Source: Oscillospiraceae bacterium
Lineage (GTDB): Bacteria > Bacillota > Clostridia > Oscillospirales > Ruminococcaceae
Direction: 5' to 3'
DNA: 35,077 bases
NCBI GenBank assembly: GCA_009784825.1
Contig: WQXO01000018.1
Coordinates: 1 to 35,077, forward strand
This document shows positions 1,586-33,500 of this stretch, piece after piece. Both the position numbers and the translations under genes were made by a program. Each line of letters starts with the position of its first letter. Positions within the stretch are counted from its first letter, which is position 1. A model generated the notes under the pieces. It made no database searches. It was not told the origin of the DNA and saw nothing but the letters and a program-made list of their open reading frames with translations.

Positions 1586-2860
1586 ATGGCAATAATTTAC
1601 GATAATGATGGCTTTGTTGACGAATTTGATGACATCGATAACCTTGACGATGCGATATATGACGTAGTAATCAAGGTAATGGGAATAGGCGGTGGCGGCG
1701 GTAATGCACTGGAATACATGGCGAAAAACGGTGTTGAGGGTGTGGAATACATTGCCGTGAATACCGATGTGCCCGCTTTAAGAGGTAAGGACAAGCAGCT
1801 TATGCAGCGTCTGCAAATCGGTAAAAAGCGGACTAAGGGGCGTGGTGCGGGCGGCAACCCCGATGTAGGCGGTGAATCCGCACGTGAGGACAGGGACGAG
1901 ATTGAGCGAATTCTTGACGGTGCATCATTAGTATTCGTTTCGGCGGGTATGGGCGGCGGCACCGGAACAGGGGCAGCTCCTGTTATCGCTGAAATTGCAC
2001 GTGAAATGGAAATCCTCACAATTGGTGTAGTAACCAAGCCGTTCGATTTTGAACGCCAGCAGAAAATGAACACCGCACTTAAAGGTATTGCAGAAATGCG
2101 GAAGCATGTCGATGCGTTGATTATTATCCCGAACCAGAAGCTGTTGAAAATCAACGAGCGTGCCATTAACGCAAAAGCGGCGTTTGAAATGGTTGACGAG
2201 GTTTTGTATAAGGTTGTTAAGAGCATTTCCGAACTGCTGAACACAACTTCCGATGTAAACGTAGACTTCGCCGACTTAACAGCAGTTCTCCAGAATTCCG
2301 GTGATGCCCATATCGCAATCGGCTTAGGCACAGGCGACAGCAAGGCGGATGAGGCTGTTTCACAGGTGATTAACTCGCCGTTGCTTGAAACTTCTATAAG
2401 TAACGCCGGAAAAATATTAGTACATATCGCCATGTCAGAGGACACATTGCTACAAGAAGTGGACTTGGTGGTTAATAAATTAACAGAGGCTGCTCACCCA
2501 GATGTAGAGGTGACGTGGGGCTGGAAGATGGATTCCGAGTTAAAGGACACAATCGTTGTAACTGCTGTGGCAACCTCGTTCAGGGATGAACCGTCGCTCA
2601 TGCGAAGGGCAGAGCAGGTTCAGCAATCACAGCAACAGACCGTAAGCAGCAGACAGCCTGTTATGGCGGGAAACGCACCTCAAGCTCAGCCGCAGCAGGA
2701 AATGCGTTCGATTTTCTCGACACAAAGCGAAACGATTGTTACCGAGGTTCAGTCTGAGCAGGTTAAGCCGCTTGACCAGTTTATCACGCAAAACTTGGGC
2801 GATACACCATATGACGATGACCCATATCAAGCGTTGGAAGAGATTTTCAAAAAGAAATAG
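1586..2860 (+). CDS. ftsZ: Cell division GTPase FtsZ (divergent)
   Basis: Tubulin-like GTPase that forms the cytokinetic ring. The tubulin signature GMGGGTGTG is intact near residues 117-125, the nucleotide-binding GIGGGGGNA loop is near 33-41, and the T7 synergy loop NVDFADL is present. The protein differs from typical FtsZ at several normally constant places: GGGGGN instead of GGGGNN, RGAGGNP instead of LGAGANP, and PNQK instead of PNDR. It also has an acidic N-terminal extension of about 25 residues. The Gln-rich linker ends in DPYQALEEIFKKK, where FtsZ usually carries a short FtsA/SepF-binding peptide. Length (424 aa) is normal. RBS AAGGAAGGA lies upstream and a dedicated promoter precedes it. 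The toxin-antitoxin locus follows directly. Confidence 0.95.
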   Translation: MAIIYDNDGFVDEFDDIDNLDDAIYDVVIKVMGIGGGGGNALEYMAKNGVEGVEYIAVNTDVPALRGKDKQLMQRLQIGKKRTKGRGAGGNPDVGGESAREDRDEIERILDGASLVFVSAGMGGGTGTGAAPVIAEIAREMEILTIGVVTKPFDFERQQKMNTALKGIAEMRKHVDALIIIPNQKLLKINERAINAKAAFEMVDEVLYKVVKSISELLNTTSDVNVDFADLTAVLQNSGDAHIAIGLGTGDSKADEAVSQVINSPLLETSISNAGKILVHIAMSEDTLLQEVDLVVNKLTEAAHPDVEVTWGWKMDSELKDTIVVTAVATSFRDEPSLMRRAEQVQQSQQQTVSSRQPVMAGNAPQAQPQQEMRSIFSTQSETIVTEVQSEQVKPLDQFITQNLGDTPYDDDPYQALEEIFKKK

Positions 2861-2870
2861 TTAAAAAGTG

Positions 2871-2899
2871 TTGACAAATTTCAAGCAATATATTATAAT
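2871..2899 (+). promoter_or_regulatory. Perfect-consensus promoter of the antitoxin RNA
   Basis: TTGACA (2871-2876), 17 bases, TATAAT (2894-2899). No plus-strand ORF of use follows before the terminator at 2943-2976, which implies a short RNA starting near 2906. Confidence 0.85.
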
Positions 2900-2905
2900 C
2901 TAACT

Positions 2906-2980
2906 ACAAATGAAATGATGTTCACGTTCTCACGCGAACAGCGAAACCGCCGAGAGGGCTAACTCTCGGCGGTTTCTTCG
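2906..2980 (+). ncRNA. Predicted antisense antitoxin RNA of a type I toxin-antitoxin pair (RNA II-like)
   Basis: The predicted transcript of about 75 nt runs from the 2871-2899 promoter to the shared terminator. Its 5' part repeats sequence found at the toxin start. Bases 2903-2919 (17 nt) are identical to 3053-3069 inside the toxin reading frame. CACGTTCTCAC (2923-2933) matches CACATTCTCAC (3076-3086), which spans the toxin start codon and the end of its Shine-Dalgarno; the single difference still allows a G-U pair. Because the toxin is on the opposite strand, these duplicated plus-strand segments are complementary to toxin mRNA. Established model: in pAD1 par, the RNA II of fst is about 65 nt and uses two direct repeats plus the terminator loop in the same way. 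Exact ends are inferred. Confidence 0.8.
2943..2976. terminator. Bidirectional terminator shared by toxin and antitoxin RNAs
   Basis: A 14-bp perfect stem (2943-2956 with 2963-2976) closes a 6-base loop. It lies between two convergent promoters and is the natural 3' end of both RNAs. The flanking U-runs are short (TTTCTTC on plus, TTTCGC on minus). The two transcripts are fully complementary here, giving a second contact site as in par loci. Confidence 0.85.
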
Positions 2981-2982
2981 GG

Positions 2983-3078
2983 CTAATCGTTGGGCTTGCG
3001 GCGGTTTAACCACTTGCTTACTCGGTCGCTGACCAAGTTCGCCATTACCGATACTACAAATGAAATGATATAACCCAC
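2983..3078 (-). CDS. Predicted type I toxin, 31-aa membrane peptide (Fst-like layout)
   Basis: The minus-strand frame opens with GTG (3078-3076) seven bases after a strong AGGAGG and stops with TAG (2985-2983). The peptide is MGYIISFVVSVMANL, then VSDRVSKWLNRRKPND. That is one short hydrophobic helix followed by a charged, basic C-terminus, the plan of Fst-type toxins (Fst is 33 aa). It is expected to act on the inner face of its own membrane when the antisense RNA is lost. Its promoter is a perfect consensus and its Shine-Dalgarno can be folded into a hairpin, which is typical of a toxin kept silent. An ATG two bases upstream in another frame gives only 8 codons and is unlikely. I cannot assign it to a named family. 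Confidence 0.75.
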   Translation of the reverse strand: MGYIISFVVSVMANLVSDRVSKWLNRRKPND

Positions 3079-3086
3079 ATTCTCAC

Positions 3087-3107
3087 CTCCTCCCTGTCGG
3101 GAAAGAG
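3087..3107 (-). promoter_or_regulatory. 5' leader hairpin sequestering the toxin Shine-Dalgarno
   Basis: On the minus strand CTCTTTCCC (3107-3099) can pair with GGGAGGAG (3094-3087) around a GACA loop, with one bulged U and one G-U pair. The right arm is the toxin ribosome-binding site. The fst mRNA carries a comparable upstream helix. Hand-folded. Confidence 0.6.
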
Positions 3108-3121
3108 CCAACGACACGATA

Positions 3122-3150
3122 ATTATACATTTTTTTACATTTTATGTCAA
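3122..3150 (-). promoter_or_regulatory. Perfect-consensus promoter of the toxin mRNA
   Basis: Minus strand: TTGACA (3150-3145), 17 bases, TATAAT (3127-3122). Predicted start near 3115, giving a toxin mRNA of about 170 nt that ends at the shared terminator. Confidence 0.85.
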
Positions 3151-3152
3151 GA

Positions 3153-3174
3153 GTGGGACACCCCACCCTTTTTT
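3153..3174 (+). terminator. Possible weak terminator
   Basis: GTGGG (3153-3157) pairs with CCCAC (3162-3166), followed closely by six T (3169-3174). It would insulate the promoter at 3177 from read-through of the toxin-antitoxin locus. The stem is only five pairs, so support is modest. Confidence 0.4.
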
Positions 3175-3227: not shown

Positions 3228-4223
3228 ATGGAAAATGTAAAAAAAGTCGAAATTGTCGAAAAAAACGAAAACATTGAAAAATTAGAAAATACCAACAAGG
3301 TGGGTCTTGTTTTCGGGAAAATACACGCTTTTTTCAGTAACCAATGGACAAAGCTGGGTTTTTCCGTGTTGTCGCTCGGCTACGGATATTTCTTAGGCTG
3401 GGTTGCCTACCTGACGCTGACGTGCTTTATGTCAACGGACAACTTTCCCTTGTTAATAGTGGTATACTCATTTATCAACGTACTCTTTGCGATATTGATG
3501 ATATACACAAGGAAAAGCCTGCTGACCCAAATTGTCGCACTTTTCATGCACCCGTGCATACTTATAATGGTGATATGGGGTTTCGGGAACTGGTTCTTGA
3601 TAATTCCCCCTTTCATAACCGCAACTGTCATATTCTTCGCTTCCGGTGCGAATGAATCGCTCAAGGTCATTCTCGGAACGATATATATGATAGTATTCGT
3701 GTTAGCTGTATTGGTTTATTTAACTTTGCAAAACCTCACAATATTAGAGCAAGTACCCGGAATAATGGATTTCGAGCGGCGTGAATATCCAAGCATTAAC
3801 CTTGATAAAAGAAATTCCGATGAACCGAATAAGTTTCGATTGGTCATGTATGTCGACGATGAATCCAAGCAGAACCGTGTTGCGGTATATTATGTGGAAC
3901 GTGCAGAGTTAGACATGAATTTTTGGAAAATTAATAAAGTCAAGGAAGGCTCTAACGATGAGCAGTTGTGGCTGCTTAAATGTGAATGGGTGTGGGGCAG
4001 CTCAAAGGCGGCAACCATAAGAGTTGACCAAAACCCTGTCATAAATTGGGAAAAAGAGGATATTCTACTTATTAACGGGGATTTAAAAGACATTGATGAA
4101 AACGGGCAGGTTGTCGCCGCAGATGAAGGCGATATGTTCACCGGAAACGAAACCACCATAATTGTGACCCCTCCCCAAATGACCCAAACCACCCCCTCGA
4201 TGACCCGTGCCGAACCGGATTAA
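3228..4223 (+). CDS. Polytopic membrane protein of unknown function
   Basis: Not recognised. The 331-aa protein has a charged Lys/Glu/Asn-rich start (1-25) and about five hydrophobic segments (roughly 44-66, 73-93, 100-118, 121-139, 147-168). A soluble domain of about 120 residues (180-300) follows, then a Thr/Pro-rich tail. The soluble part alternates beta-like stretches (FRLVMYVDDESKQNRVAVYY) and contains WLLKCEWVWG. RBS GAGGTGG is seven bases before the ATG, behind a clear promoter. The next gene starts 32 bases later behind AGAAAGGAG, so the two are probably co-transcribed. Nothing suggests a transporter or an enzyme. Confidence 0.75.
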   Translation: MENVKKVEIVEKNENIEKLENTNKVGLVFGKIHAFFSNQWTKLGFSVLSLGYGYFLGWVAYLTLTCFMSTDNFPLLIVVYSFINVLFAILMIYTRKSLLTQIVALFMHPCILIMVIWGFGNWFLIIPPFITATVIFFASGANESLKVILGTIYMIVFVLAVLVYLTLQNLTILEQVPGIMDFERREYPSINLDKRNSDEPNKFRLVMYVDDESKQNRVAVYYVERAELDMNFWKINKVKEGSNDEQLWLLKCEWVWGSSKAATIRVDQNPVINWEKEDILLINGDLKDIDENGQVVAADEGDMFTGNETTIIVTPPQMTQTTPSMTRAEPD

Positions 4224-33471: not shown

Positions 33472-33500
33472 ATTATACAGGATTTATATTAATTTGTCAA
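33472..33500 (-). promoter_or_regulatory. Perfect-consensus promoter of the TM2-lhr unit
   Basis: Minus strand: TTGACA (33500-33495), 17 bases, TATAAT (33477-33472). The -35 box lies inside the last codons of lgt, so this unit is transcribed separately from lgt. Confidence 0.85.

Follow-up and report, generated by a model that had tools for sequence, protein, structure and literature searches.

A locus beside ftsZ in an Oscillospiraceae bacterium is very probably a chromosomal type I toxin–antitoxin system of the par/Fst kind

What is encoded in the short interval that follows ftsZ in an Oscillospiraceae bacterium? The initial annotation, made from the letters alone, had placed there a complete type I toxin–antitoxin locus laid out like par/fst of plasmid pAD1. 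Here, we analysed the window, that is, the whole 35,077-nt stretch of DNA to which the locus (2871-3150) belongs, together with relatives from other genomes, plasmids and viral contigs. The locus is very probably a chromosomal type I toxin–antitoxin system of par/Fst type and belongs, within that superfamily, to a clostridial branch. Computed support comes from its anatomy, locus-specific co-variation of its repeats, purifying selection, structure signals and an empty site in relatives. It represents a large extension of a known kind with a known mechanism, not a new mechanism.

The core of the locus is made up of the following elements.

2871..2899, plus strand: promoter of RNA II (the antitoxin RNA), TTGACA-17-TATAAT, 12/12 consensus, 17-nt spacer
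2906..2985, plus strand: predicted antitoxin RNA (RNA II), about 75-80 nt, non-coding, fold −36.1 kcal/mol, z −5.6
2943..2976, both strands: shared bidirectional terminator stem, 14 bp, 100% paired, 6-nt loop
2943..3115, minus strand: predicted toxin mRNA (RNA I), about 170 nt, start placed from the promoter, fold z −4.3 (3115-2944)
2983..3078, minus strand: toxin ORF, 31 aa, GTG start (codons 3078..2986, stop 2985-2983), one hydrophobic helix and the tail SKWLNRRKPND
3086..3093, minus strand: Shine-Dalgarno (SD) sequence GGAGGAGG
3122..3150, minus strand (read 3150-3122): promoter of RNA I (the toxin mRNA), TTGACA-17-TATAAT, 12/12 consensus

The two facing promoters, described at the outset as perfect, match the consensus at all 12 positions and converge on the stem, whose arms at 2943-2956 and 2963-2976 pair throughout, as proposed for a single 14-bp terminator. 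A 12/12 scan for sigma-70 promoters (spacer 16-18) found three in the 35-kb window; the third TTGACA-17-TATAAT, at 33500 on the minus strand, is the only one besides the locus pair. The start of RNA II was set 6-7 nt past the −10 box. The interval 2906-2985 contains no ORF of at least 20 aa, in line with the plus-strand RNA having been described as devoid of a useful ORF. The stem was not listed by a generic terminator scan, and its U-tract, read from the sequence, is modest. On the minus strand, the 31-aa peptide that had been proposed as a hydrophobic helix with a tail was recovered: GGAGGAGG is followed by 7 nt, GTG and 31 codons, giving M(GTG)GYIISFVVSVMANLVSDRVSKWLNRRKPND. An ATG at 3080, in a different frame, opens a reading frame of 8 codons only.

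Relatives were collected by sequence searches. The window peptide matched 10 of 99 genomes including its own, all of one genus. A profile search found 46 places in 24 of the 71 genomes of this genus (E ≤ 1e-3), with matches in 23 of 394 genomes of an order sample (E ≤ 1e-5) and in 20 of 391 genomes, or 13 of 222 genera, of a class sample (E ≤ 1e-6). Thirty-one of the 46 genus places were read; L052 was excluded at a contig end, and L042 was the one of the remaining 30 without an SD start, leaving 29 loci. L042:1360-1600 (G031) keeps the toxin C-terminus, the terminator and a promoter-like antisense side and is probably a decaying member. Another 127 loci were added, 19 from the order, 104 from a heptapeptide pattern search and IMG/VR, and 4 from plasmids. 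Thirteen of these had no SD start under the rule used, giving 143 loci together with the genus set; six were cut by contig ends, and the 137 full loci were reduced to 111 by removing near-copies. Within the 29 genus loci, L041, L043 and L044 are near-copies. L062, L071, L078, L080, L081 and L082 were left out of the set.

The promoter and stem scripts return the best candidate per stretch and thus nearly always something, and controls were run separately on the 111 loci. Across the 29 genus loci the best antisense promoter scored 10-12 of 12 (12/12 in 24 of them) and the best toxin promoter 9-12, with a stem between the converging promoters; three of these stems (L034, L040 and L046) were probably mis-called by the script. 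An antisense promoter of at least 10/12 was found in 85/111 loci, compared with 6/109 control stretches, 10/111 on the sense strand and 2/111 shuffles. A stem of at least 7 bp lies 3′ of the toxin stop in 106/111 loci, and in 90 of these 106 the sequence past the stem is T-rich on each strand. As sequence features, the putative convergent promoters and shared bidirectional terminator of par/Fst are thus found in the window, the genus and the family.

The regulation of par/Fst depends on how the two RNAs pair and fold, for which the locus offers the following elements.

2903..2919, plus strand: direct repeat copy 1, antitoxin side, 17/17 identical to 3053-3069
2923..2933, plus strand: direct repeat copy 2, antitoxin side, 10/11 identical to 3076-3086
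3053..3069, minus strand: direct repeat copy 1 over toxin codons 4-9, 17/17 versus 2903-2919
3076..3086, minus strand: direct repeat copy 2 at the SD-start junction, 10/11 versus 2923-2933
3087..3107, minus strand: leader hairpin pairing the SD in the MFE fold (5′-SL analogue)
3108..3115, minus strand: 5′ end of RNA I, pairing with 2986-2993 at the ORF end in the MFE fold (5′-UH analogue)

The 17-base exact copy and the 11-base near-copy announced by the initial annotation are both there. Could they be fortuitous, in a decayed or chance arrangement of unrelated convergent promoters? In 2000 mononucleotide shuffles of 2861-3160 the longest exact repeat was 12 nt. A chance origin gains some credit from the window itself, where 5 of 231 other half-overlapping 300-bp tiles carry repeats of at least 17 nt, so a 17-nt repeat proves little by itself. 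Among the 29 genus loci, however, the cognate toxin start and antisense RNA ranked first in 24 by alignment and in 24 by duplex energy; the mean cognate duplex was −35.5 versus −18.9 kcal/mol, and 0 of 20,000 permutations were as good. For the 111 non-redundant loci (genus, order, named genomes, viral contigs and plasmids), alignment ranked the cognate partner first in 91 and among the top three in 103, and duplex energy in 65 and 84, respectively. The summed cognate score was 3471 compared with 1635 for permuted pairs (sd 31, maximum 1791), and six loci ranked below third under both measures. Same-genome paralogues preferred their own partner in 13/13 cases, and non-cognate pairs from the same genome (−19.0) were no weaker than those from different genomes (−17.7). 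The repeat sequence changes between loci, and the toxin start and the antisense RNA remain matched. Because the repeats of relatives are partner-specific, chance is ruled out for the arrangement. A fortuitous origin, scarcely credible, is already contradicted by the convergent promoters of the 29 genus loci and the partner-specific repeats of the 111 loci; the window itself has two perfect promoters and an intact frame. The presence of the repeats in homologous loci, on which the initial annotation had staked its reading, was borne out by a clear repeat in 101 of the 111 loci.

Pooled over these 101 loci, repeat identity peaks at about −8 to +6 and about +10 to +21, corresponding to the start-codon region and codons 4-7 with a dip between them, that is, two repeats as in DRa/DRb. 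Both RNAs thus carry repeats over the toxin initiation site, as par/Fst does. The SD core has lower repeat coverage than the peaks and is instead hidden within RNA I. The proposal that the toxin leader can mask its own SD agrees with the hairpin at 3087-3107 and with the family as a whole, in which the probability of the SD being unpaired is 0.16, compared with 0.285 with shuffled flanks (n=108, p 5e-12). Pairing of the RNA I 5′ end with the stop-codon region was stronger for cognate than for non-cognate partners (z −14, 109 loci; control region z −0.2). For the window's own pair it amounts to −12.6 kcal/mol, rank 77 of 109, which is not better than with non-cognate partners. Predicted folds and family statistics together point to counterparts of both the 5′-SL and the 5′-UH of par/Fst. 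A YUNR U-turn is present in the window RNA I loop UUAGCC; as a family feature it was rejected, occurring in 16/106 loci compared with 12.5 for shuffled sequences, with no enrichment. Joint folding of the two window RNAs gained 39.3 kcal/mol. In the resulting minimum-energy structure they are joined along the terminator region, where they are fully complementary, and the repeat arms are left single-stranded. For the 5′ arm of RNA II by itself, the predicted duplex with the toxin start has −36.8 kcal/mol, as expected from the claim that the plus-strand RNA is able to pair there.

AlphaFold2 modelled the 31-aa peptide as a single helix (residues 2-27, mean pLDDT 83), and a Foldseek search of the PDB with this model gave no match. 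Conservation of the 31-codon frame in relatives, the second stake of the initial annotation, was examined in six of seven genus loci, L034 being excluded for its length. The pooled pN/pS was 0.38 (15 non-independent pairs), a value that indicates purifying selection on the toxin reading frame; a caveat is that the first codons of this frame double as repeat. Throughout the 111 loci the start codon lies at one site (68 ATG, 26 GTG, 17 TTG), the peptide measures 25-42 aa, and the charge of the C-terminal tail is mixed, with a mean of +0.2. The family consensus is MxxIxxFxxSVxAxxVxYYICKWLDR, for which we speak of a 'YYICKWLD' clade. The Trp that Fst/Ldr toxins place between the hydrophobic helix and the charged C-terminus is W23 in the window and is present in 106/111 members. 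The helix motif P/D/S/TxxxG occurs in 53/111; the window copy reads SVMAN, lacks the G and departs from the motif. The remark that the peptide is not obviously Fst is partly answered by the family, which has the Trp in nearly all members and the motif in about half; the window copy has the Trp but neither the motif G nor a match to the Fst model NF033608.

The genomic site was examined next to the two neighbouring genes.

1586..2860, plus strand: ftsZ, upstream neighbour (Pfam Tubulin 2.2e-45, FtsZ_C 7.1e-23)
3228..4223, plus strand: 331-aa protein, downstream neighbour, no Pfam match at E ≤ 1e-6

A match to ftsZ was found in 67/71 genus genomes (66 besides the window's), and we read 29 ftsZ loci in addition to that of the window. 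Ten of them have the same 331-aa gene after ftsZ and lack the locus; the spacing to residue 31 of the 331-aa protein is 145-348 nt in these ten relatives, compared with 461 in the window. None of the 29 ftsZ loci encodes a family peptide above the inclusion threshold, the nearest case being one L209 frame at E 0.7. As the initial annotation stated, the locus adjoins ftsZ on the chromosome, but the link is not conserved: with ten relatives having the same neighbours and no locus, a conserved ftsZ-linked function was rejected. The simplest and most likely reading of these sequences is that the locus was gained beside ftsZ in the window's lineage; loss in all ten relatives appears less likely.

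DNA and profile searches found no further copy in the window genome. Elsewhere, one contig of G103 carries three tandem copies within about 700 bp (G103:C19:18206-18905), and the two that were read each pair best with their own partner. Clustered or tandem copies on single contigs also occur in G005:C6, G028:C9 and G049:C55. Members were found on Ligilactobacillus salivarius plasmids, pTRACA41 and pRGF00038; at nine plasmid matches no feature is listed beneath the match, in a gene table that is incomplete. IMG/VR contributed 24 loci, and ten neighbours of IMG/VR copies were scanned, five of which are tail sheath, tape-measure, terminase or integrase proteins. Published phages in INPHARED gave no match with one member as query. 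The heptapeptide pattern, which is biased toward one sub-branch, matched at least 593 stretches of the genome collection, at least 504 of them encoding a relative, and 80 were kept. The matches listed include Blautia, Anaerobutyricum hallii, Hungatella, Butyrivibrio, Ruminococcus, Lawsonibacter, Phascolarctobacterium, Selenomonas, Sharpea and Lachnoanaerobaculum, genera that fall into the Clostridia, Negativicutes and Erysipelotrichia. The peptides of L087 and L098, from records named uncultured Clostridia bacterium and Oscillospiraceae bacterium, are identical to those of genus loci L046 and L045, a coincidence on which we base the clostridial placement of the window. Compared with 5.8 billion proteins, a 42-aa member found nine relatives, none carrying a name. 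Annotation probably misses most members, since the peptides are short, no feature stands at the nine plasmid matches and these nine proteins are unnamed.

Several flanking regions have features of their own. L036, L041, L043, L044 and L054 share a neighbour that we take to be metK, on differing sides; the independent cases are fewer than five, because L041, L043 and L044 are near-copies in different genomes. L019, L024, L050, L054 and L058 lie near genes with a common prepilin-like sequence (GFTLVEL in four, L058 by BLAST only). L024:1360-1810 (G056) has similar palindromic repeats on both flanks (CGGGCAGAC..GGTCTGCCCCTACA) and by eye resembles a miniature mobile element.

This distribution bears on what the peptide does. 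It might be a small antisense-controlled membrane peptide with a regulatory, non-toxic role, for example on a transporter, and no part of a toxin–antitoxin pair. The mixed tail charge (mean +0.2) would suit such a role, and the roles of chromosomal Fst systems are described as largely unknown in PMC7472228. We consider it quite unlikely, given the members on plasmids, the phage genes beside five of the ten neighbours scanned, the scattered presence in 24/71 genus genomes, the same-genome paralogues with partner-specific repeats and the empty sites at ftsZ. Plasmid and phage members, scattered presence, paralogues and empty sites instead fit an addiction element.

We propose that the par/Fst-type locus would work as follows. 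The toxin mRNA (minus strand, about 170 nt) would encode the 31-aa membrane peptide. With its 5′ end paired to the last part of its own ORF and its SD within a hairpin, free toxin mRNA would be poorly translated. Because the antitoxin RNA (plus strand, about 75 nt) has the same terminator, the two RNAs could make first contact between their terminator stems; next, the repeat copies of RNA II would anneal to the start codon and the codons just after it, blocking initiation. If the antitoxin drops or the DNA is lost, the peptide would enter the membrane and harm the cell. Transcription, toxicity and the order of pairing, which follows pAD1, are inferred, as is the addiction-type role, to which the members on plasmids and beside phage genes point.

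Are the peptides kin of Fst? The window peptide had no match in Pfam or NCBIfam, including NF033608 (Fst), PF13940 (Ldr) and NF047374 (CD_typeI_toxin), and a 44-aa frame of the locus matched SdpB alone (0.045). The curated cut-off was reached by no match for which bits are shown. NF033608 matched 7/111 members at E ≤ 1 (best 0.0062), and PF13940 matched 15/111 (best 0.0077), with holin and other membrane families scoring alike; with best E-values of only 0.0062 and 0.0077, both are taken to score below their cut-offs. On the window's own genome, NF033608 gave three weak matches, none above the cut-off, and an unrelated transporter model matched 29/111 members (best 0.014). NF047374 was the sole curated model matched significantly (63/111 at E ≤ 1, best 2.4e-5), and none of 37 shuffled peptides matched it or NF033608. 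In ten peptides scanned singly it matched nine, covering the helix only (profile end 18-22 of 51), and its best score was 24.6 bits (positions 1-18), short of the 60-bit cut-off. Its scan over 71 genus genomes gave 0/71 and is uninformative, because 14 controls also gave nothing. The 111-row profile matched one PDB chain at E ≤ 10, LdrD; the match is weak (E 0.77) but runs from end to end and aligns both the motif and the Trp.

The strongest bridge between the window family and par/Fst is the RNA. Rfam has a family for the Fst antitoxin, which was absent from the matches of the window and of the family loci scanned; the window region itself had 0 matches at gathering and chance-level ones only up to E 10. 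Rfam RF02442 (SpF66), in contrast, matched 8 of 20 family loci at E ≤ 0.5 (six at E ≤ 0.01), over the toxin mRNA and all below gathering, reaching 37.1 of 42 bits at L067:1461-1662. The window RNA was not matched by it at E-values up to 10. Within the SpF66 consensus lies a 32-aa frame that ends in LYFVCKWLDGKE; it is of the CKWLDG type and scores 33.4 bits with the family profile. F66 is spd_sr109 (PMC12323649), which a study that includes Northern blots describes as the toxin mRNA of a par-homologous pneumococcal toxin–antitoxin locus lying in tandem with another (PMC9812572). Filed as an sRNA, SpF66 seems to represent the toxin mRNA of a par-like locus of pneumococci. Since its consensus encodes the same peptide type, the window most likely holds a par/Fst-type locus of a clostridial branch.

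The lead of NF047374 over the Fst model (63/111 versus 7/111 members, shuffled peptides 0/37) might instead suggest a par-like layout reached by convergent design around a peptide unrelated to Fst/Ldr, from a separate family or kin of the C. difficile type I toxins. This seems unlikely, as the peptide type of the SpF66 consensus belongs to published par homologues, Trp and motif are in register with LdrD, the C. difficile toxins measure 34-59 aa (PMC6563280), and NF047374 covers only the helix in nine of ten peptides, with a best score of 24.6 of 60 bits. Kinship with Fst/Ldr and with the C. difficile toxins may both be true together. In a bolder form, which we put forward tentatively and rate as less probable than its opposite, the YYICKWLD peptides would be the missing link that unites the Fst/Ldr superfamily and the C. 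difficile type I toxins, hitherto held unrelated, into one superfamily with par-type RNA control, diversified in Clostridia and relatives into antisense pairs that are mutually orthogonal, may number in the hundreds and are carried by chromosomes, plasmids and prophages. For the par/Fst assignment of the window locus, the formal gaps are the missing G of its motif and the lack of a curated-model match.

The site thus probably represents a small chromosomal pair of toxin and RNA antidote, built like a classic plasmid-stabilising module, from a large and poorly annotated group in clostridia and their relatives. According to a survey cited in PMC6563280, Fst-like toxins occur in hardly any clostridia; one heptapeptide pattern alone led us to at least 504 places encoding a relative. 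The string 'YYICKWLD' was absent from the literature searched; the older surveys 10.1099/mic.0.030932-0 and 10.1093/nar/gkq054 lie outside this comparison. The family offers a large natural set of co-varying antisense pairs for testing how RNA partner-specificity evolves, the results support relabelling the Rfam 'sRNA' SpF66 as a toxin mRNA, and the family suggests a testable addiction module of its carrier chromosomes, plasmids and prophages.

The layout of par/fst of E. faecalis pAD1, claimed from the start, recurs here: predicted convergent RNA I and RNA II with a common terminator, two direct repeats over the toxin start, an SD-hiding 5′-SL, a sequestered 5′ end, and a peptide of 30-odd aa that combines one helix with a charged tail (PMC7472228). 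Unlike par/fst of pAD1, the window locus is chromosomal, has SVMAN for P/D/S/TxxxG, a motif present in the majority of Fst/Ldr toxins but not in all, and lacks an NF033608 match. The Trp between helix and tail is shared by the window family, whereas Fst itself has V. The U-turn is not enriched across the window family; according to PMC7472228, the YUNR U-turn in the RNA I terminator loop is absent from some par homologues. The C. difficile type I toxins (NF047374) are likewise small membrane toxins with a convergent antisense RNA but have 34-59 aa compared with 31 in the window (PMC6563280). LdrD of E. coli (PDB 5lbj) resembles the family in its weak end-to-end match, with P-VIA-G/S-VAA-G and Trp in register, and differs in that the match has an E-value of 0.77 and Ldr regulation is hok/sok-like (PMC7472228). 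Lpt, on Lactobacillus rhamnosus and paracasei plasmids, has a 29-aa toxin and a 24-nt repeat that includes the start codon; as described, it shares the convergent RNAs and the UH and SL of RNA I, and plasmid stretches matching it are annotated as non-coding (PMC5608710). The pneumococcal Fst-like loci srf-27/spd_sr109 (= F66) and srf-28/spd_sr111 are streptococcal, and SpF66 does not match the window RNA itself, but they share with the family the CKWLDG peptide type, seen in the Rfam consensus, and the tandem occurrence (PMC9812572, PMC12323649).
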